Source: Sinorhizobium fredii NGR234 (GTDB taxonomy: Bacteria > Pseudomonadota > Alphaproteobacteria > Rhizobiales > Rhizobiaceae). Taken from it: DNA of 64,000 nt. Each line of letters begins with the position of its first letter. Within the stretch, counting starts at the first letter, position 1. Shown here one piece after another: positions 6,984-62,767 of this stretch. The DNA is taken from the NCBI RefSeq assembly GCF_000018545.1, contig NC_012587.1, forward strand, positions 2,884,001-2,948,000, given 5' to 3'. Made by a program: the position numbers and the translations under genes. The notes below the pieces were generated by a model that saw only the letters and a program-made list of their open reading frames with translations, was not told the origin of the DNA and made no database searches.

Positions 6984-8921
<1,938 letters not shown>

Positions 8922-9020
8922 CGAACTCCCCGGAACCTGTGACAGCCCGCGCTTTCGCCGGGCTGCTGTATGGTCCTTAACATAGGGTTCCGGCAGCGCC
9001 TTGCCAAGGAAAACCGCCGG

Positions 9021-12113: not shown

Positions 12114-12450
12114 GGGCCGGGTCTCCTTGAGAAGTGTCTGAATTCACGGTTGCCAGACTGTAACCGGAAGCGGTTAATTGCTTTTCAACAGGTATGGTTA
12201 ACAAATCGACAATCTGCGGCGGAGGGCCTGCTACAACAGCACTTTGCGGCGAGAAAGCGGCACTTCGGCCACAATTGCCGCCGCACCTGTGGACAACAGG
12301 TCCACGCATGTCGCCCAAAAGTGCGCCGCGGTTTTGGGGTAACGAGATGCATAAAAACAACAGCCTGAAGCGCGCCGCGTGAACAATGCGACGCGCATCA
12401 GGCGCGCAATGCGGGCGGAAAACCGCCCGCACTCTTCCTAAAACTCCGCA
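12114..12450. other. Intergenic region between tolB and pal
   Basis: This 337-bp gap contains a G/C hairpin (GCGGGCGG-TTTT-CCGCCCGC on the minus strand, about 12410-12431) just after tolB but without a T-run. Nearer pal is an AT-rich segment (about 12150-12210) that could hold the pal promoter. No convincing ORF or RNA gene is visible. Confidence 0.5.
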
Positions 12451-13758: not shown

Positions 13759-13786
13759 AAAGCCTTTCAGCCTTTCATCTTTCTGG

Positions 13787-13835
13787 GCGGAGCGAGGAAA
13801 GCGTGCGCGGTTTTCCCGCCACATCGCGCCCCAAC
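13787..13835. repeat. Degenerate palindromic repeat between tolA and tolB
   Basis: The sequence GGAGCGAGGAAAGCGTGCG, then CGGTTTTCCCGCC, is a diverged copy of the element at 54306-54356 (AGAGCGGGATGAGGAAAAGT then CGCGGTTTTCCGCC). It lies inside the tol operon. Confidence 0.5.
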
Positions 13836-13839
13836 CTGT

Positions 13840-14910
13840 CTAGAGCATTGAGCTCGGGTCGAAGTTGACGACCACCTCGCTCCACGAATCGTACTTGTCT
13901 TTGGGCAGAGCCGTGAAAGGAGCCGATTTGAGAACGGCGCGTCGCGCACCGCTGGCAAGCGCCCGGCGTGCCGCCTCCGAACCGCCGGTCGCTTCGACTT
14001 CCGGTTCGCCGATCAACTCGCCGTTCGGATCGAGCTGGAAGGTCACCTTGATGCGCACGTCCGCCGCATCGGCCATGCCGGGGATGATCGACCAGTTGTT
14101 CTGGATCTGACCGCGCAGCGCATCCATTTCGCTCTGCGAAAGCGTGTTGCCGCTCGTCGTCTTCTTGCCGCCGAGGGCCGCCTCCTCGGTCGAGCGCTTG
14201 GCGCCGCCGCCGGAAGACTCCTGCTTGTTGAGCAGCGCCGCGATCTCGTCGGCGTTGAAGTCGCTCTCCTTCTGGGAGGACGCCTTCTTCTGCTCCTTCT
14301 TGGTCTCTTCCTTCTTGCGCTCCGGGGTCTTCGCCGTCTGCGCCGGCTTTTCGACTTTCGGCTTCACCTGCGGGGTCGGCACCTTGTCCGGCAACGCCTC
14401 GGCCTCGGGGTTCTCGGCCGGCTGTTCCTCGGCCGGCGCAGGCTCCGGTTTGGTCTCCGGCTTCACTTCCTGCTTCGGTTCGGGGAGTGCTGCAACTTCG
14501 GTCGCGGGCTCCGAGGCAGGCTTGGGCTCCTCGACCTTCTGGATTTCCTCCTTCACCGGATCGGGAGTCGGCGGCGCCTTCTCGGTTTTCTCCGGTGCCG
14601 CGGCCGACTCGTTTTCGATGGGCTTGGCGTCGGGCTTCGGCGGCGTCTTCAGGTCGACGTCGTTGTCGCCGATGTTTTCGGCGTTCTCGACGGGCGTTGG
14701 CTTCTTGGTCGGGACCGGCGAAGCCTTCTCCTTGGCCGGGGCCTTCTTGTCGCCCTGCTGGATCTGGGTCATGTCCGTGATCGGCACGATGTCGACCGGC
14801 AGCGCCTCGACGTCCGCGACCTCGAATTCGGCCGGGCTGCCAAGCGACACCAGCGCCCAGGTCAGGACCAGGGCGTGGAGGACAGCAGATGTAGCAAGAC
14901 CGCCCTTCAT
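13840..14910 (-). CDS. tolA: Tol-Pal system bridging protein TolA
   Basis: TolA spans the periplasm, passing proton-motive energy from TolQR to TolB-Pal. The 356-residue protein has one N-terminal membrane helix (residues 5-25, LATSAVLHALVLTWALVSL). A very long Pro/Lys/Glu-rich domain follows (about 50-220) with charged repeats. A TonB-like C-terminal domain holds NNWSIIPGMADAADVRI and LDPNGELIGEPEV. The middle domain is biased in composition and gives strong antisense frames that are not genes. Its start is 9 bp after the tolR stop. Confidence 0.93.
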   Translation of the reverse strand: MKGGLATSAVLHALVLTWALVSLGSPAEFEVADVEALPVDIVPITDMTQIQQGDKKAPAKEKASPVPTKKPTPVENAENIGDNDVDLKTPPKPDAKPIENESAAAPEKTEKAPPTPDPVKEEIQKVEEPKPASEPATEVAALPEPKQEVKPETKPEPAPAEEQPAENPEAEALPDKVPTPQVKPKVEKPAQTAKTPERKKEETKKEQKKASSQKESDFNADEIAALLNKQESSGGGAKRSTEEAALGGKKTTSGNTLSQSEMDALRGQIQNNWSIIPGMADAADVRIKVTFQLDPNGELIGEPEVEATGGSEAARRALASGARRAVLKSAPFTALPKDKYDSWSEVVVNFDPSSML

Positions 14911-14919
14911 GTCCGGGGA

Positions 14920-15372
14920 TCACTTTTCCTGTTCTTGAAGCGTTACCAGCCCGAGATTCTTGAAGCCGGCAGCCGAGATGCGCGCCATGACCTTCATCAC
15001 CGTGCCGTAGTCGGCATTGGTATCGCCGCGCACATAGATGCGCTCGTTGTAGCCCGTCGTGGCGATCGCCTCGAGCTTCGGAACGACCTCGTCGATGCCG
15101 ATCGGGGTCTCCTGCAGGAAGATTTCACCGGCCGGATTGACCGAGACGGTGATCGGCTGGGTGTCGGCGTTCATCGCCTTCGCCTGCGTTTCCGGCAGGT
15201 CGATCGGCACGCCAACGGTCATCATCGGTGCCGCCACCATGAAGATGATCAAGAGCACCAACATGACGTCGACGAGCGGCGTCACGTTGATTTCGCTGAT
15301 CGTACCGCCCTTGCCCCTGCGCCGGCGGCGTCCGCCGCCCGACCCCTTGGCTCCGCCTACTGCCATACCCAT
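14920..15372 (-). CDS. tolR: Tol-Pal system proton channel subunit TolR
   Basis: TolR (ExbD family) forms the ion-conducting rotor with TolQ. The 150-residue protein has a Gly/Arg-rich cytoplasmic tail and one membrane helix holding the essential Asp in INVTPLVDVMLVLLIIFMV. A periplasmic domain follows, ending GLKNLGLVTLQEQEK-like (FKNLGLVTLQEQEK). The ATG at 15372 with GGAG upstream is used. It sits between tolQ (27-bp gap) and tolA (9-bp gap). Confidence 0.96.
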   Translation of the reverse strand: MGMAVGGAKGSGGGRRRRRGKGGTISEINVTPLVDVMLVLLIIFMVAAPMMTVGVPIDLPETQAKAMNADTQPITVSVNPAGEIFLQETPIGIDEVVPKLEAIATTGYNERIYVRGDTNADYGTVMKVMARISAAGFKNLGLVTLQEQEK

Positions 15373-15399
15373 CAGCGTCGTCTCCGTGCTCGAAGGTCG

Positions 15400-16119
15400 T
15401 TATTGCGCGGCCTGGCGCGAAGGCTGCAGCTTCTCGTCGATCTGCCGCGACAGGATGGCGGAGAACTCGTCGGCGAAGGCTTCCATGCGGGCGCTGAGCT
15501 TGCCGGCGTCGGCGGTGAACTTGTTGTAGGCGATGACGGCGGGAATAGCGGCGAGCAGGCCGATGGCGGTTGCCAGCAGCGCCTCCGCGATACCGGGCGC
15601 AACAACGGCGAGGTTGGTCGATTTCGACCCGGCGATTGCCTGGAACGAGGTCATGATACCGACGACGGTACCGAAGAGGCCGATGAAGGGGGCGGACGAA
15701 CCGATCGTCGCGAGCGAGCCGAGCCGCGCCTCGAGCGATTCGGATTCGCGAGCGAGCGTCACATCCATGGCGCGGTCAATGCGCATCTGCAGGCCGATCG
15801 GCGAACGGGCGCCGCGTTCGAAGCTCTTCTTCCACTCGCGCATCGCCGAGACGAAGATTGCGCCCATGCCGGTCGTCTGCCGATCGGAAAGGGTGCGATA
15901 AAGTTCCTCGAGCGACTGGCCGGACCAGAAGACCTGCTCGAAATTGTCGAGCTGCCGGCGCACGCGCCCGTAGTTGAGCGACTTGTCGACGACGATCGCC
16001 CAGGTCCAGACCGAAGCTGCAATCAGCCCCAGCATGACCAGCTTGACCACCAAGCCCGCTTGCATGAACAGCGACCAGAGGGTCACATCGCTCGTCGCGG
16101 CCAATCCAACCTGTTCCAT
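15400..16119 (-). CDS. tolQ: Tol-Pal system proton channel subunit TolQ
   Basis: TolQ (MotA/ExbB family) is the stator-like inner-membrane subunit that energises TolA. The 239-residue protein has three membrane helices (about 20-40, 135-160 and 170-195). The signature GSSAPFIGLFGTVVGIMTSF leads into helix two and AIGLLAAIPAVIAYN forms helix three. The start at 16119 (MEQVGLAATSDVTLWSL) matches the family; upstream frame is not used. It leads tolQ-R-A-B. Its usual upstream partner ybgC is separated from it by ku-ligD. Confidence 0.96.
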   Translation of the reverse strand: MEQVGLAATSDVTLWSLFMQAGLVVKLVMLGLIAASVWTWAIVVDKSLNYGRVRRQLDNFEQVFWSGQSLEELYRTLSDRQTTGMGAIFVSAMREWKKSFERGARSPIGLQMRIDRAMDVTLARESESLEARLGSLATIGSSAPFIGLFGTVVGIMTSFQAIAGSKSTNLAVVAPGIAEALLATAIGLLAAIPAVIAYNKFTADAGKLSARMEAFADEFSAILSRQIDEKLQPSRQAAQ

Positions 16120-16497
16120 CGATCTCAGTCCCCGAATCCAAACACCCGGCAGGAGCAACGCATGCTCATGACCGGGTCGCCCAAACGTCCTGCTGCAAAA
16201 TGCCCCGGCATCGCCGCCGTTCGCGGCAATTGCGATCTACTCGCTTCAGCCTGCCTTCTTGCCGTCAATTTTGGTCAAAGGATGACGTGCACTGCACAAA
16301 TCCTGATACACAGATAAAGACACTATTATCGTTAAGGGAGTGTTACCGGAGCGGCGCTGCCGGCGGCTGCGGCGCGGAACTTCGCCAAAGCTCGTACGTT
16401 TCCGGTCAATGGGCGCTCACGCGAGAATACAACCGAGACGAAACAGTCACCGTGGCTCGACCGCAGCGGCGCGGCGCCGGCTGAGCGGGGCATAGCG
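16120..16497. other. Divergent promoter region between tolQ and ku
   Basis: This 378-bp gap separates tolQ (minus) from ku (plus) and must carry the tolQ promoter and possibly the ku promoter. An AT-richer stretch at about 16285-16340 is the likeliest promoter site, but I cannot assign hexamers. No ORF or RNA gene is recognised. Confidence 0.5.
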
Positions 16498-39593: not shown

Positions 39594-41570
39594 ATGATCT
39601 CTCGCGAAAAACACGACCGGATGGCGAATGCAATCCGTTTCCTCTCCATGGACGCCGTCGAGAAGGCAAATTCCGGCCACCCAGGTCTCCCGATGGGCGC
39701 GGCCGACATAGCAACGGTCCTCTTCACTCGTTACCTCAGCTTCGACCCGAAGAACCCCGCCTGGCCGAACCGCGACCGCTTCGTGCTGTCGGCCGGCCAC
39801 GGCTCGATGCTGCTCTATTCGCTGCTCTATTTGACCGGCTACGAAGACATCACCATCGACGAGATCAGGAATTTCCGCCAGCTCGGCTCGAAGACGGCGG
39901 GCCATCCGGAATACGGCCATGCCGCCGGCATCGAGACGACGACCGGCCCGCTCGGCCAGGGCATTGCCAACGCCGTCGGCATGGCGCTCGCCGAGCGCAA
40001 GCTGCGCGACGAGTTCGGCAGCGACCTGATCGAGCACTACACCTATGTGATCGCCGGCGACGGCTGCCTGATGGAAGGCATCAGCCAGGAGGCGATCGCG
40101 CTTGCCGGCCATCTGAAGCTCAACAAGCTCATCGTCTTCTGGGACGACAACAACATCTCGATCGACGGACCGATCTCGATCGCCGACTCGACCGACCAGC
40201 ATGCCCGCTTCCGTGCCTCCAAATGGCACACCATCGCCGTCGACGGCCATGATCCGGAGGCGATCGCCGCCGCGATCGAGGAAGCGCAGAAGTCCGACAA
40301 GCCGACGATGATCGCCTGCAAGACCGTCATCGGCTTCGGCGCCCCGAACAAGGCCGGCACCCACAAGGTGCATGGCTCGCCGCTCGGCGCCGAGGAAATC
40401 GCCGCGACCCGCAAGGCGCTCGGCTGGGAAGCCGAGGCCTTCACCGTTCCGGCCGACGTGCTCGACGCCTGGCGTCTTGCCGGCCAACGCTCGGCGGAAA
40501 CCCGCAAGGCATGGGAAGAAACCCTCCAAACTGCCGAGAAGAAGGCCGAATTCGTGCGCCGTTTCTCCGGCGAACTCGAGGCCGGCCTCGCCCCGGCAAT
40601 CAGCGCCTACAAGCAGAAGCTCGCCGAGACGAAGCCGTCGCCGGCGACCCGCAAGGCTTCCGAGGATGCGCTGGAAGTCATCAACGGCGTACTCAACGAG
40701 ACGATCGGCGGCTCGGCCGACCTGACCGGTTCCAACAACACCAAGACGAGCCAGACCCATTCGATCACGCCGGACAATTTCTCCGGCCGCTACGTCCACT
40801 ACGGCGTCCGCGAGCACGGCATGGCCGCCGCCATGAACGGCATGGCGCTGCACGGCGGCGTGATCCCCTATTCCGGCGGCTTCCTGATCTTCTCGGACTA
40901 TTGCCGTCCGTCGATCCGCCTCGCCGCCCTGATGGGCATCCGCGTCATTCACGTGCTCACCCACGACTCCATCGGTCTCGGCGAGGATGGTCCGACGCAC
41001 CAGCCGGTCGAGCATCTGGCCGCCCTGCGCGCCATCCCCAACCTCCTGGTGTTCCGCCCGGCCGACGCGACCGAAACGGCCGAATGCTGGCAGCTGGCGC
41101 TTGAGAGCAAGAAGCGCCCGTCCGCCATCGCGCTGACGCGCCAGAACCTCATGGCGGTGCGCACCGAATACAAGGAAGTGAACCTCTGCGCCCGCGGCGC
41201 CTATGACCTGATCCCGGCGAGCGACGCCAAGGTGACGATCTTCGCCACCGGCTCGGAAGTCGAAATCGCCGTCAAGGCAAGCCAGGCGCTGACGGAGAAG
41301 GGCATCTCGACGCGTGTCGTTTCCGTGCCCTGCATCGAGCTTTTCGCCGAGCAGAGCGACGACTATCAGCAGGCGGTCATCGGCAAGTCGCCGGTCAAGA
41401 TCGCCATCGAAGCCGGCGTCCGCCAGGGCTGGGACCATATCATCGGCAGCGACGGCACCTTCGTCGGCATGTCGAGCTTCGGTGCCTCCGGTCCCTACAA
41501 GGAGCTCTACAAGCACTTCGGCATCACGCCGGAAGCGGTTGTCGCGGCCGCCGAAGCCAAGCTGTCCTGA
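39594..41570 (+). CDS. tkt: Transketolase
   Basis: Transketolase moves two-carbon ketol units between sugar phosphates in the non-oxidative pentose phosphate and Calvin pathways, using thiamine diphosphate. The 658-residue protein has the N-terminal [16 protein letters not shown], the ThDP motif [13 protein letters not shown] through DDNNISIDG, and the catalytic Glu region [19 protein letters not shown]-terminal domain from about 530 completes it. It opens the tkt-gap-pgk-fba block. A hairpin lies in the 72-bp gap before gap. Confidence 0.97.
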
Positions 41571-41577
41571 TCAAGCC

Positions 41578-41604
41578 GGAGGGCGCCCTGGTGGCGCCGT
41601 CCAT
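41578..41604 (+). terminator. Hairpin between tkt and gap
   Basis: GGAGGGCGCC-CTGGT-GGCGCCGTCC pairs over nine to ten bases, just after the tkt stop. There is only a weak T-run (ATTCGTTT), so it may be a partial terminator or an mRNA-stabilising end. Confidence 0.45.
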
Positions 41605-41642
41605 TCGTTTACCCACGCCATCCTGATAGGGAGAGACCCGAC

Positions 41643-42653
41643 ATGACAGTGAAAGTCGCCATCAACGGTTTCGGTCGCATCGGCCGCAACGTGCTTCGCG
41701 CCATCGTCGAATCCGGCCGCACGGATATCGAAGTCGTCGCGATCAACGACCTCGGCCCGGTCGAGACCAACGCCCACCTGCTGCGCTTCGATTCCATCCA
41801 CGGCCGCTTCCCGGCCGACGTGAAGGTCGAAGGCGACACGATCGTCATCAACAATGGCAAGCCGATCAAGGTGACCGCCGTCCGCAATCCGGCTGAACTG
41901 CCGCACAAGGACCTCGGCGTCGACATCGCGATGGAATGCACCGGCATCTTCACCGCGCGCGACAAGGCAGCCGCCCATCTCGAAGCCGGCGCCAAGCGCG
42001 TCATCGTCTCGGCACCGGCCGACGGTGCCGACCTGACCGTCGTCTACGGCGTCAACCACGACAAGCTGACGAAGGATCACCTCGTCATCTCCAACGCATC
42101 CTGCACGACCAACTGCCTTGCACCGGTCGCCAAGGTGCTGAACGACGCCATCGGCATCGACCATGGCATGATGACGACGATTCACTCCTACACGAACGAC
42201 CAGCCGTCGCTCGACCAGATGCACAAGGACCTCTACCGCGCCCGTGCTGCGGCGCTGTCGATGATCCCGACCTCGACCGGTGCAGCCAAGGCCGTCGGCC
42301 TCGTGCTGCCGGAGCTCAAGGGCAAGCTCGACGGCTTCGCCATGCGCGTGCCGACCCCGAACGTCTCGGTCGTCGACCTCAAGTTCGTCGCCAAGCGCGA
42401 CACCACCAAGGAAGAGATCAACGCGGCGATCAAGGCAGCCGCCGACGGCCCGCTGAAGGGTATTCTCGGCTATACGCTCGCCCCGAATGTCTCGATCGAC
42501 TTCAACCATGATCCGCATTCCTCGGTCTTCCACATGGACCAGACCAAGGTGATGGAAGGCAAGTTCGTGTCGATCCTCACCTGGTACGACAACGAATGGG
42601 GCTTCTCGAACCGCATGTCCGATACGGCGGTCGCCCTCAGCAAGCTCATCTAA
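41643..42653 (+). CDS. gap: Glyceraldehyde-3-phosphate dehydrogenase
   Basis: GapDH interconverts glyceraldehyde-3-phosphate and 1,3-bisphosphoglycerate. The 336-residue protein has the Rossmann start [17 protein letters not shown], the active-site Cys in [19 protein letters not shown] (about 157), and the phosphate sites [13 protein letters not shown]. Asp is not at the usual end of beta-2; the residues are VVAINDLG, as in enzymes that use NAD. It has a GGGAGAG ribosome site. The next gene begins 4 bp after its stop. Confidence 0.97.
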
Positions 42654-42657
42654 GACC

Positions 42658-43248
42658 ATGTTCCGGGCCCTTTCCTCAACGACGGTGCGCTGGCGTCCGC
42701 TCGAGGGGGAAGGGCTCGAACATCTGACGATCCGACCTCTCGATGCATCCGTCGGCGCGGCGATCCGCGCCGAAAGCGTTCTGATCGGCGAGCGCGGCGG
42801 GGCTCCCTACGGGGTCCGCTACCGCATCGATTGCGATGCCGGCTGGCGCGTCACGTCCTTCGTCATCGAGACGACGGACGCGCGCCGGCTACACCTTCTT
42901 TCCGACGGCACCGGCCATTGGCGCACGGCCGAGGGCGTCGCCCTCCCCCGCTTCGACGGCTGCATCGACATCGACCTCGCCGGCACGCCATTCACCAATA
43001 CGCTGCCGATCCGCCGTATGGACCTCACGCGTGCGTCCGGCACCGCCAAACTCAAGATGCTCTACGTGCCGTTCGACAGCTTCGAGCCGACTGTCGACGG
43101 TCAGCACTACACCTGCCTCGAGGACGGCAAGCTCTATCGCTACCAGGCGGAGGACCGCAGCTTCACCGCTGACCTGCCGGTGGACGAGGACGGCCTCGTC
43201 ATCGACTATCCCACCCTGTTTCAGAGACTATCACTGGAGACGAACTGA
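42658..43248 (+). CDS. Putative glycolipid-binding domain protein (DUF1089)
   Basis: The 196-residue protein matches the putative glycolipid-binding family: [74 protein letters not shown], then LPIRR. Members are predicted beta-sandwiches with no proven activity. It has no signal peptide. It starts 4 bp after gap and its TGA overlaps the pgk ATG (TGATG), so its translation is coupled to both glycolytic genes. That placement is unusual and suggests a link to central carbon flux or simply hitch-hiking. Confidence 0.75.
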
Positions 43249-44447
43249 TGACTTTCAAGACCCTTGACGATCTGACCGACATCGCCGGCAAGCGCGTGCT
43301 GGTGCGCGTCGATCTCAACGTTCCGGTCAAGGACGGGCAGGTGACCGACACCACCCGCATCGAGCGCGTGGCGCCGACCATCCGCGAACTCTCCGAAAAG
43401 GGCGCCAAGATCATCCTGCTTGCCCATTTCGGCCGTCCGAAGGGCGAGCCGGTCGCCGATATGTCGCTGAAGGCGATCGCCCCTGCCGTCGAGGAAATCC
43501 TCGACCAACGTGTCCACTTCGCCGCCGACTGCATCGGCGACAAGGCCGCCAACGCGATTGCCGAGATGAATGACGGCGACGTGCTGCTGCTTGAAAACAC
43601 CCGCTTCCACAAGGGCGAGGAAAAGAACGATCCGGCCTTCGTCACGGCACTGGCCGCCAATGGCGACCTCTATGTCAACGACGCCTTCTCGGCCGCGCAT
43701 CGCGCCCATGCCTCGACCGAGGGTCTGGCGCAGCATCTCCCCGCCTATGCCGGCCGCACCATGCAAGCCGAACTCGAGGCACTCGAAAAGGGCCTCGGCA
43801 ATCCGAAGCGGCCGGTCGTCGCGATCGTCGGCGGCGCCAAGGTGTCGACCAAGATCGACCTCCTGCAGAACCTCGTGAAGAAGGTCGACGCGTTGGTCAT
43901 CGGCGGCGGCATGGCCAACACCTTCCTGGCCGCACAAGGCGTCGACGTCGGCAAGTCGCTCTGCGAGCACGATCTTGCCGAAACGGCAAAGTCGATCATC
44001 GCCGCGGCGGCCGCGGCCGGTTGCGCCATCGTGCTTCCGGAAGACGGCGTCGTTGCTCGCGAGTTCAAGGCCGGCGCCGACAACGCGGTCGTCGACATCA
44101 AGGCGATCCCGGCCGACGCCATGGTCCTCGACGTCGGGCCGAAATCCGTCGCCGCCATCAACGACTGGATCTCGCGTGCCGAGACGCTCGTCTGGAACGG
44201 TCCGCTCGGGGCCTTTGAAATCGCGCCCTTCGACAAGGCGACGGTGGCGGCGGCCAAGCACGCGGCCGCCCGGACCCGCCAAGGTTCGCTCGTCTCGGTC
44301 GCCGGCGGCGGCGATACGGTGGCCGCCCTCAACCACGCCGAGGTCGCCGACGATTTCACCTATGTCTCGACGGCCGGCGGCGCCTTCCTCGAATGGATGG
44401 AGGGTAAGCCGCTCCCGGGCGTCGATATCCTCCACAAACAGAAGTAA
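43248..44447 (+). CDS. pgk: Phosphoglycerate kinase
   Basis: Pgk transfers phosphate between 1,3-bisphosphoglycerate and ADP. The 399-residue protein has the substrate-binding [15 protein letters not shown] and [12 protein letters not shown]. It also has [20 protein letters not shown], the nucleotide site [13 protein letters not shown], and the Gly-rich [11 protein letters not shown] near the C-terminus. It is translationally coupled to the preceding DUF1089 gene by a TGATG overlap. A 244-bp gap separates it from fba. Confidence 0.97.
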
Positions 44448-44458
44448 CAGCAAGTTCG

Positions 44459-44492
44459 CCGACCCGCGCAAACGGATACGCCCGGGTCGGCG
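44459..44492 (+). terminator. Hairpin after pgk
   Basis: GCCGACCCG and CGGGTCGGC pair around a loop of about 15 bases, 12 bp past the pgk stop. An A/T-rich but not T-run sequence follows, so termination is possible but not certain. Confidence 0.45.
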
Positions 44493-44515
44493 CTCAAAAT
44501 AATAATGATATTTCA

Positions 44516-44551
44516 AACGATTAAATTTTTTTAAATCGTTTTAGTCGATTT
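44516..44551. promoter_or_regulatory. AT-rich dyads upstream of fba
   Basis: AACGATT...AATCGTT (44516-44540) flanks an A/T core, and overlapping it AAATCG-N7-CGATTT (44533-44551) forms a second dyad. They stand out in a G/C-rich region and are about 140 bp before the fba ATG. They look like regulator sites; no regulator is assigned. Confidence 0.45.
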
Positions 44552-44636
44552 TACTGCCATTTTCCCGCACACTATCTTCTGTTATCGCGCCCCTGCCCTT
44601 CGGCGGCGCGAAGTATGTCTCTCGCGCCCTCAGACC

Positions 44637-44647
44637 GAAACGGTTTC
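44637..44647. promoter_or_regulatory. GAAACGGTTTC palindrome in the fba leader
   Basis: This perfect 11-bp palindrome, 45 bp before the fba start, has the shape of a LacI-family operator half-site pair. Regulation is only inferred. Confidence 0.35.
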
Positions 44648-44691
44648 TTGCGCCGCTCCGCCTGGGTCGGCGCTGTGTGTAGGAGAAAAAG

Positions 44692-45717
44692 ATGAGCGAA
44701 AGACTGGAAGATATTGCGGTTGCCATGGTCGCCAACGGCCGGGGCCTGCTCGCTGCCGACGAGTCGACCGCAACGATCAAGAAGCGCTTCGACAGCATTG
44801 GGCTGGAGTCCACCGAGGACTCGCGCCGCGACTATCGCGAGATGCTGCTGCGCTCGGACGAAGCGATGCGCAACTATGTCTCCGGCGTCATCCTTTACGA
44901 GGAAACCCTGTTCCAGAAGGCGGCCGACGGCACGCCGCTCGTCGACATCATCAAGAGCGCCGGCTCGATCCCCGGCATCAAGGTCGACACCGGCGCCAAG
45001 CCGCTGCCGCATTTCCCCAATGAGACGATCACCGAGGGCCTCGACGGCCTCGCCGCCCGCCTCGCCAAATACTACGAAGCCGGTGCCCGCTTCGCCAAGT
45101 GGCGCGGTGTCATCGCCATCTCCGGCACCCTGCCGAGCTTCGGCGCAATCAAGGCCAACGCCCATGCTCTGGCCCGCTACGCGACGCTCTGCCAGGAGGC
45201 CGGGATCGTCCCGATCGTCGAGCCGGAAGTATTGATGGACGGCGCTCCGGGCGACCACTCGATCGATCGGTCCGAAGAAGTAACCGAATGGGTACTTCGC
45301 ACCGTCTTCGAGGAACTCGGCGACCTGCGTGTGAAGCTCGAAGGCATGATCCTGAAGCCGAGCATGGTGATCGACGGCAAGAAGACCCGCAAGGCCTCGG
45401 TGGAAGAGGTGGCCGAGCGCACCGTCAAGGTGCTGAAGCGCACCGTGCCGGCCGCCGTGCCGGGCATCGCCTTCCTGTCCGGCGGCCAGTCGACGGAGGA
45501 GGCGACCGCGCATCTCTCCGCCATGAACACGGTCCACGACCTGCCCTGGAAGCTGACCTTCTCCTATGGCCGCGCCCTGCAGCAGGAAGCGCTCAACGCC
45601 TGGAACGGCAAGCCGGAGAACGTCGCCGCCGGCCAGCGCGCCTTCACCCATCGCGCCAAGATGTGCAGCCTCGCCGCCAAGGGAAGCTGGAAGAAGGATC
45701 TCGAGCAAGCCGCCTGA
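44692..45717 (+). CDS. fbaB: Class I fructose-bisphosphate aldolase
   Basis: This Schiff-base aldolase splits fructose-1,6-bisphosphate into triose phosphates. The 341-residue protein is the eukaryote-like class I type. It has GRGLLAADESTATIKKRFDS, YREMLLRSD, GVILYEETLFQ, FAKWRGVIAIS, the Schiff-base Lys in VKLEGMILKPSMV, and FLSGGQSTEEAT. An AGGAG site precedes the ATG. It completes the tkt-gap-pgk-fba block and is followed by a strong terminator. Its leader carries several dyads, so it is probably transcribed separately from pgk. Confidence 0.96.
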   Translation: MSERLEDIAVAMVANGRGLLAADESTATIKKRFDSIGLESTEDSRRDYREMLLRSDEAMRNYVSGVILYEETLFQKAADGTPLVDIIKSAGSIPGIKVDTGAKPLPHFPNETITEGLDGLAARLAKYYEAGARFAKWRGVIAISGTLPSFGAIKANAHALARYATLCQEAGIVPIVEPEVLMDGAPGDHSIDRSEEVTEWVLRTVFEELGDLRVKLEGMILKPSMVIDGKKTRKASVEEVAERTVKVLKRTVPAAVPGIAFLSGGQSTEEATAHLSAMNTVHDLPWKLTFSYGRALQQEALNAWNGKPENVAAGQRAFTHRAKMCSLAAKGSWKKDLEQAA

Positions 45718-50930: not shown

Positions 50931-51054
50931 GAATACCCTTGCGCGGAATGCGGTATCAGATCATTCTTCGGGCATAGAGGGGCGGCAAGGAAACTTTTCC
51001 CAAGGCCACTTCGTTACCTGACCGTGATGCGTTTTGAACCAGGAAAGACAGGCC

Positions 51055-51573
51055 ATGTCCGAGAGAGGATTGAATACCGTCAGTTTCGCAGGACATGCTG
51101 CGTCCTCGGCGCAGTTCAAGGCGCTCTATGCGGAGGGGATGGGCCTTGTCGAGGAGACGGCGGGCTATCTCGACGGACCTGGCCGGACCGCCTCCAAAGT
51201 TCTGCCGCGCATGGCCTCGGTGCTTTACGCCGCCGAGTCGATGCGGCTGACCACGCGGCTGATGCAGATGGCTTCCTGGCTTCTCCTGCAGCGCGCCGTC
51301 AACAACGGCGAAATGAGCCGCGAGCAGGTCATGTCGGAAAAGAGCAAGGTTCGCCTCGACAGCTTCAACGTCGACCGCAGCGCGCCCGGCTGGAACGAGC
51401 TGCCGGACTCGTTCCGCGAGTTGATCGAACGCTCGCTCCGCCTGCAGAACCGCGTCGCGCTTCTCGATCGCGAGATCTACCGGCCGCAGGAAGCGACGAC
51501 CTTCGTTCCGGACAACCAGAACGGCGTCAAGGCGCAGATCAAGCTGCTGCAGACCGCCTTCGGCAGCAACTGA
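51055..51573 (+). CDS. rcdA: Regulator of CtrA degradation RcdA (DUF1465)
   Basis: RcdA is an adaptor that helps ClpXP degrade the cell-cycle regulator CtrA at the pole. The 172-residue all-helical protein matches DUF1465/RcdA: AQFKALYAEGMGLVEETAGY, VLYAAESMRLTTRLMQMASW, then LLLQRAVNNGEMS and FRELIERSLRLQNRVALLD. The ATG at 51055 has an AGGAAAG site; a TTG at 51034 is unlikely. A CtrA-type box lies upstream and a terminator follows. Confidence 0.88.
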   Translation: MSERGLNTVSFAGHAASSAQFKALYAEGMGLVEETAGYLDGPGRTASKVLPRMASVLYAAESMRLTTRLMQMASWLLLQRAVNNGEMSREQVMSEKSKVRLDSFNVDRSAPGWNELPDSFRELIERSLRLQNRVALLDREIYRPQEATTFVPDNQNGVKAQIKLLQTAFGSN

Positions 51574-57422: not shown

Positions 57423-58454
57423 CTATTTTTCGGTCAGCTTGAGCTCGATGCGCCGATTTTGCGCCCGCGCCTCCAGGCTCTCGCCGACCGCGATAGGCTG
57501 GTATTCGCCGAACCCGGCCGCCACGAGGCGATCGGCTGGTACACCCCTGGAGATCAGGAACTTGACGACCGACGTGGCGCGCGCCGACGACAGTTCCCAA
57601 TTGTCCGCGAAGCGGCCGGTGCCGGACAGCGGCACGTTGTCCGTGTGGCCGTCGACGCGCAGCACCCAGTTGATCTCGGCCGGAATTTCCTTGGCGAGAT
57701 CGAGCAGAGCCGTGGCGAGCTTCGCCATCTCCCCCTGGCCTTCAGGGTTCAGGTCGTTGCTGCCCGAGGAGAACAACACTTCCGACTGGAAGACGAAGCG
57801 GTCGCCGACAATGCGGATGTTCTCGCGATCCGAAAGGATTTCCCGCAGGCGTCCGAAAAAGTCCGAGCGATAGCGGTTGAGTTCCTGCACGCGCTGGGCG
57901 AGCGCAACGTTCAGTCGCCGGCCGAGATCGGCGATCTTGGCCTGCGACGACTGGTCCTTGGCCTCGGAAGCCTGCAGCGCGCCCTCGATGGCGGCGATCT
58001 GGCTGCGCAGCGCGGCGATCTGCTGGTTCAAAAGCTCGATCTGGCTCATCGCCCGCGAACTGATCTGCCGTTCGTTTTCGAGCTCCGAACCCAGCCGGCC
58101 GATTTTCTGGCTGGCCGCGTCGGCGCTGCCGGCCCCCTGGTCGAGCAGCGACTGCAGGCGCGATCGCTCGCCTTCCGACTGGGAAAGCGAGGCCTGGAGA
58201 TTGGCGAGCGAATCCTCGAGGTCCTGCTTGCCGCTCTTTTCAAGGGCCAGAAGCTGGGTGAGTTCGTTGATCTGGCTGTTCAGGCGGTTCAGAACCTCGT
58301 CCTTGCCGGTGATTTCCCGCCCCATCAGGAACTGCGCCGTGACGAAGACGCTGAGCAGGAACATGATCGCCATCAGCAAGGTCGAAAGCGCATCGACGAA
58401 GCCCGGCCAGTAGTTGATCGTCCGCGGATTGCGGCCCCTTCGGGCGAGCGCCAT
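57423..58454 (-). CDS. MotB/TolR-like protein with OmpA peptidoglycan-binding domain
   Basis: The 343-residue protein has a short basic cytoplasmic start and one membrane helix with a likely ion-binding Asp (YWPGFVDALSTLLMAIMFLL; Asp about 21). A long coiled coil (about 50-205) follows. It ends in an OmpA-like peptidoglycan-binding domain (LFSSGSNDLNPEGQGEMAKL, LRVDGHTDNVPL, NWELSSARATSVV). With the upstream MotA-like protein (3-bp gap) it should form a proton- or sodium-driven motor anchored to the wall. Flagellar MotB lacks such a long coiled coil. The same plan is seen in ZorB. The role is unknown. Confidence 0.8.
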   Translation of the reverse strand: MALARRGRNPRTINYWPGFVDALSTLLMAIMFLLSVFVTAQFLMGREITGKDEVLNRLNSQINELTQLLALEKSGKQDLEDSLANLQASLSQSEGERSRLQSLLDQGAGSADAASQKIGRLGSELENERQISSRAMSQIELLNQQIAALRSQIAAIEGALQASEAKDQSSQAKIADLGRRLNVALAQRVQELNRYRSDFFGRLREILSDRENIRIVGDRFVFQSEVLFSSGSNDLNPEGQGEMAKLATALLDLAKEIPAEINWVLRVDGHTDNVPLSGTGRFADNWELSSARATSVVKFLISRGVPADRLVAAGFGEYQPIAVGESLEARAQNRRIELKLTEK

Positions 58455-58457
58455 GGA

Positions 58458-59564
58458 TTACTCGCCCCCGCTTTCGTCGGCGTGACTGAGTTTCGCCTGC
58501 GCGGATGTCCGCTCGCTGTTCACGGCGATACGGTCGGCCTGGCCGATGCGCGATGTCAGCCGGTCGAGCGTCTTGCGCATCGACTTGGCCTCCTCCTGCT
58601 GCGCCTCGATCCAGTCGCGCAGCATCTGCTGCTCGCCACGCATGTTCTTGACGAGACCCTGGATGCCTTCGGCGAGGCTCGCCATCGCCGCCGTCGTGCG
58701 CTGGTTGACGCCTCCGTCGTGCGCGAGACGGGAGAGCTGGTCGGCGACGCGCCGCATTTCCTCGGCGGGGGCGCCGCCGGCCGTCTCGATCGGTGACGAA
58801 AAGCCGGAGCCGACATCGGTGACCGATGAAAGCCAGTTTTCAAGCTCCGTGTAGAAGCGGTTCTGGGCGCGGCCCGCCTGGAGATCGAGGAAGCCGAGGA
58901 TCAGCGATCCGGAGAGGCCGAACAGCGAGGCCGAGAAGGCCGTGCCCATGCCGGTCAGCGGCGCCGACAGGCCGCTCTTCAGCGAACTCAGCAGGTCCTC
59001 GGTGGTGCCGGAGCCGGCGTCCAGCGACTGGATGACGGTATTGATCGAGCCGATCGTCCCGAGAAGGCCCCAGAAGGTGCCGAGCAGGCCGAGAAAGACG
59101 AGGAGGCCGGCGAGATAACGGGTGATGTCGCGCGACTCGTCGAGGCGCGTCGCGATGGAATCGAGGATCGAGCGGAGCGCGATCGTCGAGATGGCCGTCG
59201 TCTGCCGCCCGCCGATCAGGGAGCGCATGGGCGCAAGCAGTACCGGATCGCGACCCACCTTGTCGGCACTGCCGGCGGCACGGAACGAGTTGAACCAGCG
59301 CACCTCGGGCCTCAGGCCGAGCACGTGGTTGAACGCCAAGAGAATGCCGATCAGGAGCACGCCGAGGATCAGTCCGTTGAGACCGGGATTGCCGACGAAA
59401 GCTTCACGCGCCTGCCGGAAGAGGATCGCCGAGACAAAACCGACGATGATCAGGAAGATGACCATCGTCCAGAAATAGGGCATCGGGCTCGAAAGCTTGT
59501 GCGGATTGTAGTTCTCCTCCGCTACTTCCTGCCCACGCCAGCCGGACAGATTCAGTTTCGTCAT
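58458..59564 (-). CDS. MotA/TolQ/ExbB-like channel protein with C-terminal tail
   Basis: The 368-residue protein has four predicted membrane helices (about 35-55, 70-90, 150-175 and 200-225). Helix one is YFWTMVIFLIIVGFVSAILF. The helix three-four region GLLGTFWGLLGTIGSINTVI and LTGMGTAFSASLFGLSGSLI is the MotA/TolQ signature. A cytoplasmic, partly coiled C-terminal tail of about 130 residues is absent from TolQ and ExbB. The start at 59564 (MTKLNLSGWRGQ) is preferred to a longer frame. It is the first gene of the pair and is separate from tolQR in this window. Confidence 0.8.
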   Translation of the reverse strand: MTKLNLSGWRGQEVAEENYNPHKLSSPMPYFWTMVIFLIIVGFVSAILFRQAREAFVGNPGLNGLILGVLLIGILLAFNHVLGLRPEVRWFNSFRAAGSADKVGRDPVLLAPMRSLIGGRQTTAISTIALRSILDSIATRLDESRDITRYLAGLLVFLGLLGTFWGLLGTIGSINTVIQSLDAGSGTTEDLLSSLKSGLSAPLTGMGTAFSASLFGLSGSLILGFLDLQAGRAQNRFYTELENWLSSVTDVGSGFSSPIETAGGAPAEEMRRVADQLSRLAHDGGVNQRTTAAMASLAEGIQGLVKNMRGEQQMLRDWIEAQQEEAKSMRKTLDRLTSRIGQADRIAVNSERTSAQAKLSHADESGGE

Positions 59565-59923: not shown

Positions 59924-60724
59924 CTACTTTGTCGGAACAGGGCGATGGATGACGTCGCGCAGCGCCTTGGCGATATATTCGTTGCCGCAGATGATCGAGC
60001 CGTCTTCGACGGGCTTCGATCCACCGTCGATGTCGGTCACCCAGCCGCCGGCCTCGCGGATCAGCAGGACTCCGGCGGCGATGTCCCAGGCGGCAAGGTC
60101 ACGCTCCCAGAAGCCGTCGAAGCGCCCGGCCGCCACGTAGGCGAGATCGAGCGAGGCGGAGCCGAAGCGGCGAATGCCGGCGACCTCGCCCATGACGTGG
60201 CGAAGTTCGATGAGATACTTGCCGTGATTACCGCGGCCGAGATGCGGCGTGCCGGTAGCAACCACCGCATCGGACAGCGCCTTGCGGGCGCCGACGCGCA
60301 GGCGCCGGTCGTTGAGGAAGGCGCCGCCGCCCCGCTCGGCCGTGTAAAGTTCGTCGGTCGCCGGGTTGAAGACGACCGCGCCGACGATCTCGCCCTGGCG
60401 CTCCAGCGCGATCGAGATGGCGAAATGCGGCAAGCCGTGGAGGAAATTGGTGGTGCCGTCGAGGGGATCGACGATCCAGCGATGGGCGCCGTCGGTGCCC
60501 TTGATCTCCTCGCCCTCCTCGCCGAGGAAGCCGTAGGTCGGGCGGGCCTTCAGGAGCTCCTCGCGGATGATCCGCTCGGCCTTGCGGTCGGCCTGGGAAA
60601 CGTAATCGCTCGGCCCCTTCAAGGAGACCTGCAGGTTCTGGACTTCGCCGAAATCGCGCGCCAGCGACTTGCCGGCCTTGAAGGCCGCCTGGACCATGAC
60701 GTTGAGAAGGGCAGAACGGGCCAT
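59924..60724 (-). CDS. suhB: Inositol monophosphatase family protein (SuhB-like)
   Basis: IMPases hydrolyse inositol phosphate and related sugar phosphates with Mg; SuhB also helps ribosomal RNA transcription in E. coli. The 266-residue protein has the metal sites GEEGEEIKG and IVDPLDGTTNFLHGLPHFAI. The C-terminal WDIAAGVLLIREAGGWVTDIDG is also present. The start at 60724 (MARSALLNVMVQAAFKAG) fits family length. It lies 244 bp downstream of the Sel1-repeat gene. The symbol is by homology and could belong to a paralogue. Confidence 0.88.
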   Translation of the reverse strand: MARSALLNVMVQAAFKAGKSLARDFGEVQNLQVSLKGPSDYVSQADRKAERIIREELLKARPTYGFLGEEGEEIKGTDGAHRWIVDPLDGTTNFLHGLPHFAISIALERQGEIVGAVVFNPATDELYTAERGGGAFLNDRRLRVGARKALSDAVVATGTPHLGRGNHGKYLIELRHVMGEVAGIRRFGSASLDLAYVAAGRFDGFWERDLAAWDIAAGVLLIREAGGWVTDIDGGSKPVEDGSIICGNEYIAKALRDVIHRPVPTK

Positions 60725-60968
60725 TGGGCAATCCTCTGAAAGCGAAGGCCGGCCGAGCCATCTCGACCGGACATTGAACCTGCTTGACGGTTCGCCCCAG
60801 CAAGGGTCGGCGAAGGGACGCAACCGTCGTCAAAAAACCGAGTGAGAAGTCACTCTGTCCGCACGGCCGGGATGTTGGGGCCGCGGACAAAACCGCGGCT
60901 TCAAGACCACAAAATCCCCGAAAGTTCAAGGGAAATAGACGGCGCCGTCGAATCGCGACGCGACGCGA

Positions 60969-62105
60969 TCAGGACGAGCGGAACTTGTTCGCCGCCGCGA
61001 GCGCCGATTTCTGCTGCTGGTCGTTGAGGCCGAGATAGAAATCCTCGAGCGCATCGTCCTTGAGCCCGGCCCGGCGCGACAGCACGTACCACTTCGCCGC
61101 CTCGATCGGATCGGGTCGTGTGCCGATGGCATTGACGAGGAGATGGGCAAGGCGGTTCTGCGCGACGACATTACCGCCCTCGGCGGCCCGCTTCATCCAG
61201 GCAAAACCCCCGTCGAGGTTGCGGTCGCCACCGATCCCCTCGATCAGCCAGATCGCCATGTCGAGCTGCGCCGTGTCATAACCGGCGCGCGCCGCCCGGG
61301 CGAGCCATTCGCGCGCCCGCGCCCGCTTGCCGTCGTCGATGCCTTCGACATTGAGATAGATCTGCGAGAGCGCGTACTGGGCGTCGGCAATGCCCTGTTC
61401 GGCCGCCTTCTCGTAATAGGGCATTGCCGCCTTCAGTCCCTTCTGGCCCGGAGCGTCGGCAACGAGCGTCTGGCCATAGTTGAACTGGGCGGCCGCATTG
61501 CCGAGATCTGCGGCCTTTTTCATCAATTCATCGGCGCTCTTGCGGTCGCGCTTGACGTAGCGCCCCTCCATCAGGATCAGCGCATATTTGAACATCGCCG
61601 CCGGATCGCCGTTATTGGCCGCCTGGCCATACCAGAAGGCCGCATCCTTGGGATTGCGCGCGACGCCGAGGCCCTGCTCGAGGATCGATGCGACAAGCGT
61701 CTGAGCCGCCGGATCGCCGAGCTGGGCGCGCGGCAGGGCGAGATCCATTGCCGTCAGGTAAAAGCCGCGCTGGAAGGCCCCGTAAGCGTCGTCCACCTTG
61801 CCGGCGAACGGTTTTTCCGCCGGAAGCGCCGGAAGTTCGGCGCCCATGCGGTCGATGACGTTGACGCCACCGGACGGCTTCTCGGCCTTCGGCTTGGCCT
61901 TTTCATCGCTCTTCGCCGGCTTTTCGGCGCCCTCCGGCAGCGCTGCGCCGTTATAGGGCGTGATCCGGCCGCGCTTCGGGACCAGTCCCTCGTCGGCCGG
62001 CGCGGGAGAGGGCGGCTGCTCGGCGAGCGCCGGAAAAGCGGCCAGCGCAAAGGCGACGGCAAGGGTCGCAGCCCGGCTCAATGTGAGGAAGGATCGGCTC
62101 AGCAT
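60969..62105 (-). CDS. Exported Sel1-repeat (TPR-like) protein
   Basis: The 378-residue protein has a signal peptide (SRAATLAVAFALAAFPALA) and a Pro/Lys/Glu-rich linker (about 30-80). At least six Sel1-like repeats follow: LGDPAAQTLVASILEQGLGV, NGDPAAMFKYALILMEGRYV, LGNAAAQFNYGQTLV, QGIADAQYALSQIYL, AGYDTAQLDMAIWLIEG, GGNVVAQNRLAHLL. Such proteins act as scaffolds, often at the envelope. ATG at 62105 is used; GTG two codons earlier is possible. It starts 8 bp after the ThiE-like gene stop, so they are cotranscribed. Confidence 0.85.
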   Translation of the reverse strand: MLSRSFLTLSRAATLAVAFALAAFPALAEQPPSPAPADEGLVPKRGRITPYNGAALPEGAEKPAKSDEKAKPKAEKPSGGVNVIDRMGAELPALPAEKPFAGKVDDAYGAFQRGFYLTAMDLALPRAQLGDPAAQTLVASILEQGLGVARNPKDAAFWYGQAANNGDPAAMFKYALILMEGRYVKRDRKSADELMKKAADLGNAAAQFNYGQTLVADAPGQKGLKAAMPYYEKAAEQGIADAQYALSQIYLNVEGIDDGKRARAREWLARAARAGYDTAQLDMAIWLIEGIGGDRNLDGGFAWMKRAAEGGNVVAQNRLAHLLVNAIGTRPDPIEAAKWYVLSRRAGLKDDALEDFYLGLNDQQQKSALAAANKFRSS

Positions 62106-62113
62106 CGCCACGT

Positions 62114-62767
62114 CTAATCTTCAAACCGTGGCGCTTTTTCGTCAAGCAAGGCGTTGACGGCGGCGACCACGGAGGGCGCCTGACCCGGCTCGGCAAAGAC
62201 AGCGAGGCGAAGCGCAACGAACTCGGCGCCGGTCTCGGCCACCGCAAGGGCCGATTGCGGATCGGTGCCGCCCATCACGATGCAAGGAATTTCGATCATC
62301 GATGCCCACCACTCGGCGAGCGCCAGGTTCTTCGGATGCGCTTCCGGCTTGATGTCGCCGTCGGTGCGGCCGAAAAACACATAGTCCGGCCGGAGTTCGC
62401 CGATCTCGAGCGCATGGTGGCGGTCGGTCGCATTGCCGCCGCCGACGATCATCTTCGGCGTATGCCGCTCGATCGCCTCTCCGAGCACATCCGCGCCGGC
62501 GGCGATGTGAAGGCCGTCGGCCTTGGAACGACCGGCGACGCGCGTGTCGCCCTCGATGAGCGCTGCCGCCCCCGCCTTCTGGATCACTGGTACGAGCGCT
62601 TCGGCGTGCTTTTGGAAATCCGTCTCGTTGAGGCCGTATTGCGGGACGATGACGGATGCCACATCGCCGCCCTTGAGGGCATCGGCGAGCACTTTCGAGC
62701 GTTCGGCAAGGTCCGGCATGTCGGGTGCGATCAGCACGAGGCGGCAGCGGTTATCGGTATTGCTCAT
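62114..62767 (-). CDS. ThiE-like (thiamine phosphate synthase fold) protein
   Basis: The 217-residue protein has the TIM-barrel of the ThiE/TenI family: LVLIAPDMPDLAERSKVLAD, GAAALIEGDTRVAGRSKADG, then LHIAAG. Further segments are DYVFFGRTDGDIKPEAHPKN and IPCIVMGGTDPQSALAVAET. The canonical H-x-G-Q-x-D motif is replaced by LHIAAGAD, and no thi genes are nearby. It may be a divergent paralogue with another role. It leads the Sel1 operon. Confidence 0.75.
   Translation of the reverse strand: MSNTDNRCRLVLIAPDMPDLAERSKVLADALKGGDVASVIVPQYGLNETDFQKHAEALVPVIQKAGAAALIEGDTRVAGRSKADGLHIAAGADVLGEAIERHTPKMIVGGGNATDRHHALEIGELRPDYVFFGRTDGDIKPEAHPKNLALAEWWASMIEIPCIVMGGTDPQSALAVAETGAEFVALRLAVFAEPGQAPSVVAAVNALLDEKAPRFED

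Follow-up and report, generated by a model that had tools for sequence, protein, structure and literature searches.

The gene pair

The window analysed here is a 64,000-nucleotide stretch of the Sinorhizobium fredii NGR234 genome, and its positions 57423-59564 hold, on the minus strand, a MotA-type gene and a MotB-type gene that lie 3 bp apart. The MotA-type subunit (A; 58458..59564) is 368 aa long when read from its ATG, with an alternative TTG start at 59744 that would give a protein of 428 aa, and consists of four membrane helices followed by a cytoplasmic tail of ~140 aa. A hydrophobicity scan placed the four hydrophobic segments at scan-window centres of residues 32-48, 63-79, 155-169 and 214-221. 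The Pfam MotA_ExbB domain (PF01618) was matched with 23.1 bits, barely above the cut-off of 22.9, and for that reason the A protein is classed as a very distant MotA_ExbB member; this match and the four helices together place it on the A side of the superfamily.

The core of the A subunit reads GLLGTFWGL, and two predicted channel-ring residues are invariant: Thr163 in TM3 (codon 59076..59078, minus strand), a Thr in 39/39 and 87/87 aligned rows, and Ser213 in TM4 (codon 58926..58928, minus strand), unchanged in the same two alignments of 39 and 87 rows. The position of Thr163 is occupied by Thr in the aligned TolQ/ExbB and ZorA proteins and by Ala in flagellar MotA (12/12), and that of Ser213 by Ser in ZorA and by Thr in both TolQ/ExbB and flagellar MotA. 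The cytoplasmic tail (residues 228-368; 58461..58883, minus strand), helical by inspection only, contains a DQMRxEQ-like conserved patch in which M308, R309, E311 and Q312 are each found in at least 90% of 87 rows. The pattern is a loose one, as its strict form matched only 34 of 61 members, and certain members, such as those with A proteins of 297-304 aa, have only a short tail.

The MotB-type subunit (B; 57423..58454, minus strand) is a protein of 343 aa that matched NCBIfam NF006544, 'peptidoglycan -binding protein' (PRK09039), with 691.3 bits against a curated cut-off of 362. In a Pfam scan it matched OmpA alone (61.4 bits, cut-off 27.2), with no match to PF02472, the TolR/ExbD type. Consistent with the B side of the superfamily, it has a single membrane helix with an Asp: the segment reads WPGFVDA, begins in the AlphaFold2 model at residue 17, and includes Asp21 (codon 58392..58394, minus strand), predicted to carry the ion, which is Asp in 26/26 and 65/65 aligned rows. 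The same Asp was found in every one of the 61 B genes in the set of loci, window included, 58 of which read WxGx[VI]DA and three WPGxVD followed by Gly or Val. A 1175-aa frame in one locus (L073) was considered as a B protein and ruled out, being devoid of the membrane Asp motif and adjoining the true B gene.

Beyond the membrane, AlphaFold2 predicts a long periplasmic helix or coiled coil of ~165 residues (43-207; 57834..58328, minus strand) with a break at 107-110, and then an OmpA/MotB-type peptidoglycan-binding domain (213-342; 57429..57818, minus strand) that is also indicated by Pfam and by fold matches, the closest of which are MotB/MotS C-domains. The monomer model as a whole (helices 17-106 and 111-207, OmpA fold 213-342) is of modest confidence, with a mean pLDDT of 71 and a pTM of 0.45. 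The length of the coil differs from family to family among the B genes of the loci set, and the wall motif NxxLSxxRAxxV is found in 60 of the 61, being absent from L037. The initial annotation had described a MotA-like four-helix protein 3 bp from a MotB-like protein with a membrane Asp, a coiled coil and an OmpA domain, and the ORFs, Pfam and AlphaFold2 bear this out; its long A tail and long B coil stood as well, the sizes it gave them being 130 and about 150 residues.

Distribution and gene neighbourhood

The A subunit was matched in 125 of 190 Alphaproteobacteria genomes, once only in 122 of them and at less than 65 bits in four, and the B model in 120 of the 190 at a threshold of 1e-30, the pair being mostly single-copy and present in roughly two thirds of the sampled class genomes. 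Because the A profile gave no match in the other 65 of 190, the pair is dispensable in some lineages. For comparison of loci, 60 non-rhizobial loci were chosen from the A matches, and 80 Rhizobiales loci, near kin of the window, were taken as the best 80 among 582 that had been confirmed. A and B are adjacent in 60/60 of the chosen loci and in 80/80 of the Rhizobiales loci; their spacing has a median of 7 bp and is at most 60 bp in 56 of 61 loci. Since the pair is retained in 60/60 chosen loci of other genomes, whose A proteins share 36-53% identity with that of the window, a chance origin is excluded.

The neighbours of the pair are housekeeping genes, namely thiE, efp, an inositol-phosphatase gene and an msbA-like ABC gene. 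On the minus strand, the gene for an inositol-monophosphatase family (SuhB-like) protein (59924..60823) is a conserved neighbour in 78 of the best 80 of 582 Rhizobiales loci and in 54/60 other loci, that for a Sel1-repeat secreted protein (60969..62111) in 65/80 and 4/60, and that for the thiamine phosphate synthase ThiE (62114..62767) in 65/80 and 38/60; an EF-P gene lies near the pair in 48 of the 60 other loci. Synteny with suhB, efp and thiE does not have to imply a common function. A promoter scan gave no sigma-70-like site, and the same scan returned 10 terminator-like sites versus 4.4 expected.

The Sel1 protein of the window, which has six Sel1-like repeats by reading of its sequence and no near-full paralogue in the genome, is probably the orthologue of RgsF (SMc03995). 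In a study of S. meliloti (PMC7327166), RgsF is described as a periplasmic protein located at the growing pole and septum, for which a knock-out was not obtained; its depletion led to short round cells, its overproduction had no effect, and TolQ and TolR were recovered by pull-down. The main text of that paper never uses the terms 'MotA', 'MotB', 'ExbB' or 'OmpA'. RgsF suggested a Rhizobiales-specific polar-growth motor, an idea weakened by the class-wide spread of the pair and by the scarcity of the RgsF-like gene elsewhere; because the Sel1 gene is found at so few loci beyond near kin, the motor is not one peculiar to polar growth.

Relationship to Tol/Ton systems and a secreted OmpA-like partner

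Tol-Pal is encoded separately in the same window at 11.6-16.2 kb (TolQ by PF01618, a Pal-type gene by OmpA, and TolR, TolA and TolB by ORF reading), as had been proposed earlier. The A subunit resembles TolQ/ExbB in its GLxGTxWG motif and ring Thr, but Ser213 replaces Thr, the family forms a separate branch, and B, unlike TolR/ExbD, carries an OmpA domain and coil of its own. The pair is thus, by these comparisons and those with flagellar MotAB given below, distinct from both TolQR/ExbBD and the flagellar stator.

In 51 of the 60 non-rhizobial loci the A gene has upstream of it, at most 250 bp away in 50 of them, a gene for a secreted OmpA-like protein whose consensus has a proline-rich middle and in which an OmpA domain was found in 25/25 members scanned. 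This arrangement, together with the retained TolQ/ExbB-type motif, would suit a Tol/Ton-like force transducer that works in parallel to Tol-Pal and uses the secreted partner to pull on the wall or outer membrane. Such a transducer nonetheless seems unlikely, as B has its own wall domain, the partner gene was not found in the flanks of any of the 80 Rhizobiales loci (best 80 of 582), and the partner profile matched only two proteins in the window's genome (38 and 34 bits), both of them other OmpA proteins and one the product of the Pal-type gene. Furthermore, the OmpA domain of the partner is without the usual Asn in 40/40 members with a placeable motif (of 51), and a GHTD-like Asp was found in 4/51. 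A hidden partner between the phosphatase and A genes was looked for in nine Mesorhizobium-type loci and found in none; by sequence reading, the intervening gene in those loci encodes an unrelated membrane protein, an epimerase-like protein on the opposite strand, or a LysE-like protein.

It is also conceivable, and a little less probable than force transduction, that the pair is a wall-strain sensor, in which contact with peptidoglycan opens the channel and the tail signals or frees a partner, ion flow being a signal rather than work. The long A tail with its conserved patch would suit such a device, and for Zorya it has been proposed (PMC11890865) that an alteration of the wall allows ZorB to bind, with opening of the channel. 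However, no cytoplasmic effector gene is conspicuous in the neighbour clusters, and the shortness of the tail in the 297-304 aa proteins argues against signalling through it.

Relationship to Zorya

Like ZorAB, the pair combines a MotA-type ring protein bearing a C-terminal cytoplasmic tail with a MotB-type OmpA-domain protein, and shares with it the Thr/Ser channel ring and a GMxTAFxxSLxGL stretch. PADLOC models matched A as ZorA1 (50.4 bits) and B as ZorB3 (99.6 bits), and the family falls on the ZorA side of the A-subunit tree with a support of 96, subject to long-branch warnings. The A protein fails both NCBIfam ZorA models: it scored 19.9 bits where the cut-off is 100, and 18.6 bits where it is 500. 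In further contrast to ZorAB, the pair has a long periplasmic coil, core-genome synteny and an A tail of only ~140 aa, the two ZorA proteins compared being 688 and 862 aa in total.

A phage-defence function, with the pair as a new Zorya type cut down to A and B, would account for these likenesses but is very improbable. No Zor model, ZorC/D/E included, was matched among the seven neighbours scanned, in agreement with the initial annotation, and the matches of the neighbouring ABC gene to the mad3 and mad8 models are such as ABC ATPases may give. Rather than being patchy, the pair is a mostly single, syntenic copy in its class, where the ZorA1 model at 1e-25 found 0/181 genomes, yet the same model gave strong ZorA matches in three genomes from a different class. 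A defence role was accordingly rejected on distribution, synteny and neighbours; of the suggestion that the pair is a defence relative, the sequence kinship stands and the role does not.

Two other groups resemble the pair. Long-tailed MotA/OmpA pairs found in other Pseudomonadota (L231-L234) gave the best profile match to the A subunit, 97% by hhalign in local mode, and a short OmpA-type partner lies directly downstream in the three of these loci that were read (L231, L232 and L234). They differ in their neighbours, in the size of their A proteins (675-855 aa) and in forming a separate branch (98). PRK09039 and NF006542-NF006546 include B, a clear member of NF006544, but provide a name without a function and say nothing of A, of its pairing with B, of the OmpA-like partner or of the conserved gene order.

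Relationship to the flagellar stator

The pair has the overall plan of flagellar MotAB, and the wall domain of B is of the MotB type. In contrast to flagellar MotA, however, the A protein had no MotA_N (PF20560) match in the Pfam scan, and its ring residues differ. The flagellar MotA of this genome (MotA_N, 116.9 bits) is encoded at C3:310948, a distance of 2.63 Mb by coordinate or ~1.3 Mb by the shorter route if the replicon is circular. As noted previously for this locus, flagellar genes are not near: no flagellar model scored above cut-off among the scanned neighbours, and the Sel1 protein gave 46.6 bits against the MotX model, whose cut-off is 330. By hhalign, the A profile was least similar to flagellar MotA, at 18% versus 81% for TolQ/ExbB and 97% for long ZorA-like proteins. 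The flagellar MotA proteins group on a branch of their own (support 99) with the family outside it, which agrees with the expectation that the pair would not fall within flagellar MotAB, although a constrained tree uniting the two was not rejected (p 0.67) and the free quick tree was bettered by both constrained trees, by log-likelihoods of 15.7 and 13.9. That the pair is a second flagellar stator, as implied by the database name 'flagellar motor protein MotA' and by its listing as motility-related in PMC8656257, is scarcely credible, being rejected on domain, ring residues, genomic location and tree.

A candidate housekeeping motor of the envelope

The reading we favour, and consider probable, is that the pair is a housekeeping, ion-driven motor of the alphaproteobacterial envelope, a third one and akin to the Zorya motor, most likely for wall growth, division or envelope upkeep. 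Sequence comparison establishes the gene pair, its conserved residues, a predicted wall-binding fold, its synteny and class-wide spread, and its separateness from flagellar and Tol/Ton pairs; on the same footing, the predicted motor chemistry is well supported, and the proposal of a second wall-anchored machine of the ion-motor type has held. It is the neighbouring genes that point to a role in growth or division, and we infer a 5:2 assembly, ion flow and a direction of force.

In such a motor, A subunits (five, by analogy) would surround the membrane helices of a B dimer as an inner-membrane ring, and ions, probably protons, moving past Asp21 in B and past the ring residues Thr163 and Ser213 in A would rotate one subunit against the other. 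The OmpA domain of B would hold peptidoglycan via the long coiled coil. With B thus fixed to the wall, torque would have one of two outlets: the cytoplasm, reached through rotating A tails in the way modelled for ZorAB, or the periplasm, where it would serve to pull on or re-space the wall. In most of the non-rhizobial loci examined, the secreted OmpA-like protein would be a natural periplasmic partner. A broader and more tentative proposal would make the pair the third envelope motor of the whole class, alongside Tol-Pal and Ton, working with a secreted OmpA-like partner of its own in the growth or division of the wall. On this view it would share an ancestor with the Zorya motor, and the defence machine would have been derived from such a housekeeping motor of the wall.

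If the favoured reading is true, many Alphaproteobacteria, rhizobia included, operate an unstudied proton- or sodium-powered machine that grips the wall and that annotation conceals as a 'flagellar motor protein' or a 'peptidoglycan -binding protein'. It could power septation or the growth of the wall, for example in Rhizobiales, where the machinery of polar growth is known only in part, and would offer a housekeeping counterpart for understanding the mechanism of ZorAB. Deletion of the genes and mutation of a single Asp would put the motor claim to a direct test.

In the open PMC literature no phenotype of either gene was found, nor the pair by name, with the exception below; subscription journals and supplementary tables lie outside that search, so essentiality data may exist. 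The exception is Atu3746, the likely Agrobacterium orthologue of B, which PMC8656257 places in the detergent-resistant membranes in each of the three conditions examined there, and on that report the B protein is therefore made in Agrobacterium.

The motor-type gene pair and its products

Both genes of the pair lie on the minus strand of the window, and the open reading frames confirm the two adjacent motor-type genes of the initial annotation: the A gene (58458-59564) encodes a protein of 368 aa and is followed after 3 bp by the B gene (57423-58454), encoding 343 aa. The A protein has the four hydrophobic segments of the MotA-like protein first described, with a tail that measures about 140 residues and not 130, and its Pfam match to MotA_ExbB is marginal (23.1 bits against a cut-off of 22.9). 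The B protein carries the membrane Asp, coiled coil and OmpA domain attributed to it, with Asp21 in the membrane segment WPGFVDA; an AlphaFold2 monomer of modest confidence (pLDDT 71, pTM 0.45) has two long helices, spanning residues 17-106 and 111-207, followed by an OmpA fold (213-342). The nearest solved structures are the wall-binding domains of MotB-type proteins and MotS (top 3khn, E 5e-10), the Pfam match to OmpA is clear, and the NCBIfam model reached is NF006544, 'peptidoglycan -binding protein', at 691 bits. These features strongly suggest a distinct, conserved type of wall-anchored ion motor.

Across families in 60 loci, the length of the B protein ranges between 327 and 632 aa; most of this variation lies in the central part of the coil, both ends of which are conserved. 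At one class locus (L073:8701-13701), the B gene (8701-9891) has beside it another long frame (1175 aa as called) with the same coil and OmpA motif but no membrane Asp motif.

The host genome has four matches to MotA_ExbB, namely TolQ, an ExbB-type protein, flagellar MotA and the A protein. The flagellar MotA lies 2.63 Mb from the pair by coordinate, or about 1.3 Mb along the shorter arc should the replicon be circular. Tol-Pal is separately present, as noted previously, in a cluster of TolQ, TolR, TolA, TolB and Pal (11583-16158) some 41 kb away.

Place among motor families

The A protein was compared with its relatives at two ring residues. Position 163 is Thr in all 26 family rows, as in TolQ/ExbB (20/20) and ZorA (2/2), whereas flagellar MotA has Ala (12/12); position 213 is Ser in 26/26 family rows and 2/2 ZorA, whereas both TolQ/ExbB (20/20) and flagellar MotA (12/12) have Thr. 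By these residues the family is nearest to ZorA. Profile comparison scored four long-tailed proteins from other Pseudomonadota at 97%, TolQ/ExbB at 81%, a ZorA profile made of two rows only at 67%, and flagellar MotA at 18%.

A quick tree built on 74 rows and 215 columns, using 21 of the 60 class loci and omitting 11 near-like ExbB/TolQ rows, L229, L197, L210, L169, L171-L176 and L178, placed the family and ZorA opposite TolQ/ExbB and flagellar MotA, with a split support of 96 and long-branch warnings. A place within flagellar MotAB, the refuting outcome named at the outset, did not occur; constrained trees rejected neither a joint clade with flagellar MotA (p 0.67) nor the family as a single clade (p 0.76). 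The sequences thus make up a compact family that lies apart from both flagellar MotA and TolQ/ExbB and is closest to ZorA by ring residues, with a tentative deep branching order. A published classification divides MotAB relatives into flagellar and generic ones, with 272 generic proteins, mentions members of unknown function and excludes ZorAB from its trees (PMC12505986); other new transducers have also been described (PMC12204202).

In several other Pseudomonadota families (L231:6659-9879, L232:7806-10612 and L234:5197-7895), MotA-type proteins of 675-855 aa with long tails are accompanied by a short OmpA-type partner; they make up a separate branch (98) and may have been studied just as little. 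A non-alphaproteobacterial locus (L227:6140-14264) holds one run of MotB-like, HlyD-like, distant MotA-like, 969-aa protein and ABC genes, named from sequence reading, which resembles the SiiAB type I secretion arrangement.

Gene neighbourhood

The 60 class loci were hand-picked, one per genome and mostly among the stronger matches, from 125 A matches. All have the B gene, and A-B spacing (window included) is 7 bp at the median and no more than 60 bp in 56/61. An inositol-phosphatase gene is found at 54/60, the L057 copy being weak and on the opposite strand and several misses falling at contig ends; EF-P is found at 48, ThiE at 38, and an msbA-like ABC gene of inconstant strand also at 38. 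Among Rhizobiales, the best 80 of 582 confirmed loci, hence near kin, hold B (80), phosphatase (78), ABC (67), ThiE (65), Sel1 protein (65) and EF-P (35) genes; in two of them, L120 and L122, three of these genes (phosphatase, Sel1 and ThiE) are found several kb off on the opposite strand.

A gene for a secreted OmpA-like protein lies upstream of the A gene at 51/60 class loci, within 250 bp in 50 of the 51. It was missing at L025, L026, L037, L048, L056, L067, L073, L078 and L083, with a piece found by tblastn in L048 and L056, and was seen in the flanks of none of the best 80 of 582 Rhizobiales loci. The host genome appears to have no dedicated copy, since a profile yielded just two weak OmpA matches elsewhere. 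The protein has a proline-rich middle followed by a C-terminal OmpA domain; PF00691 matched all 25 members scanned, and no NCBIfam cut-off was reached by the member displayed in full. Wall binding of the usual type is doubtful judging from its motif, because the first residue is never Asn in the 40/51 where the motif could be placed (34 have Ala) and a GHTD-like Asp is present in 4/51.

In many class loci a sugar-phosphate cluster continues into thiE, efp, the phosphatase gene and the motor pair. Since the window has transketolase, GAPDH, PGK and aldolase-type genes (39594-45714; named from sequence reading and counterparts in other loci), it is a rearranged form of this old neighbourhood. Close to the motor region, the gene for the cell-cycle protease adaptor RcdA (51034-51570; NF051867, 210 bits) adjoins the msbA-like ABC gene.

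Distribution

In an even draw of alphaproteobacterial genomes, the A protein matched 125/190 at E <= 1e-3, where 4 of the 125 fall below 65 bits and could be other MotA relatives, and three genomes hold two matches. The B model matched 120/190 at E <= 1e-30 and none of 14 control genomes, including Escherichia coli and Caulobacter vibrioides. Phylum-wide, the A profile matched 113/398 genomes at 1e-6, and the pair is absent from some class lineages; among the 20 no-match genomes listed (265 more fall outside the list), nine belong to family f14, three to f65 and two to f147, and the window's own family and order contribute one each. One f14 genome has a divergent match (L228:7111-9633), in which a B-like gene precedes a longer A gene (563 aa) with EF-P adjoining. 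Scores above 300 bits also occur outside the class, in six genomes from three families; on the tree these form one group (support 96) among alphaproteobacterial rows, at a poorly supported position, which may point to transfer.

Relation to Zorya defence systems

The suggestion of a defence relative holds for sequence kinship, with the ZorA-type ring residues, and is not supported for the role, given the spread of the pair over about two thirds of class genomes; no Zor model matched any of the seven neighbours scanned. At 1e-25 the ZorA1 model matched none of 181 class genomes and no controls. The same model picked out strong ZorA in three genomes belonging to another class, and at 1e-10 it also gave weak matches within the family, including the window's A gene (48 bits). 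The neighbouring ABC gene matches mad3 (119.5 bits) and mad8. Published Zorya motors depend on their tail as well as on wall binding and ion flow (PMC11890865), and the corresponding sequence features of the pair speak for a Zorya-like mechanism, not for a like role. The pair is a class-wide variant of a known machine type; the case for its proposed cellular job is circumstantial. No published study of it was found among open PMC papers; two papers listed for the model name PRK09039 look incidental from their titles, and nothing on the pair was found in PMC9275681.

Candidate orthologues in related genomes

Upstream of the pair, the Sel1 protein (60969-62111) begins like a secreted protein with a signal peptide and, by sequence reading, contains six Sel1-like repeats (Pfam 97.5 bits, two stretches passing individually). 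RgsF of S. meliloti (SMc03995) is a periplasmic protein with a signal peptide, a TPR domain and six Sel1-like repeats; it is located at the growing pole and septum, its knock-out was not obtainable, depletion gives short round cells, and overproduction is without effect (PMC7327166). The names MotA, MotB, ExbB and OmpA are absent from the main text of that report. The closeness in number of SMc03995 to tkt2 (SMc03978; PMC9611204) parallels that of the Sel1 and transketolase genes in the window. SMc03994 is given as ribosomal protein S21 (PMC9611204), but no S21 gene was seen beside the Sel1 gene in the window. With no second near-full-length match in the host genome (next best 52 bits), the Sel1 protein is on these grounds a likely RgsF orthologue. 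A ChvI-bound fragment lies within SMc03993, whose product is not given (PMC3687685).

The window order of RcdA (51034), MsbA-like (52505) and MotB-like (57423) genes is that of Agrobacterium Atu3742, which is RcdA (PMC10469942), Atu3744, named MsbA, and Atu3746, named MotB (both PMC8656257), and the order B, FAD-dehydrogenase and ABC gene recurs in Agrobacterium at L130 and L132. By gene order, the B protein thus very likely has Atu3746 as its orthologue. Named a 'flagellar motor protein' and counted among motility proteins, Atu3746 was present among detergent-resistant membrane proteins in each of the three conditions examined (PMC8656257); its flagellar MotB and motility label appears to be a misannotation.
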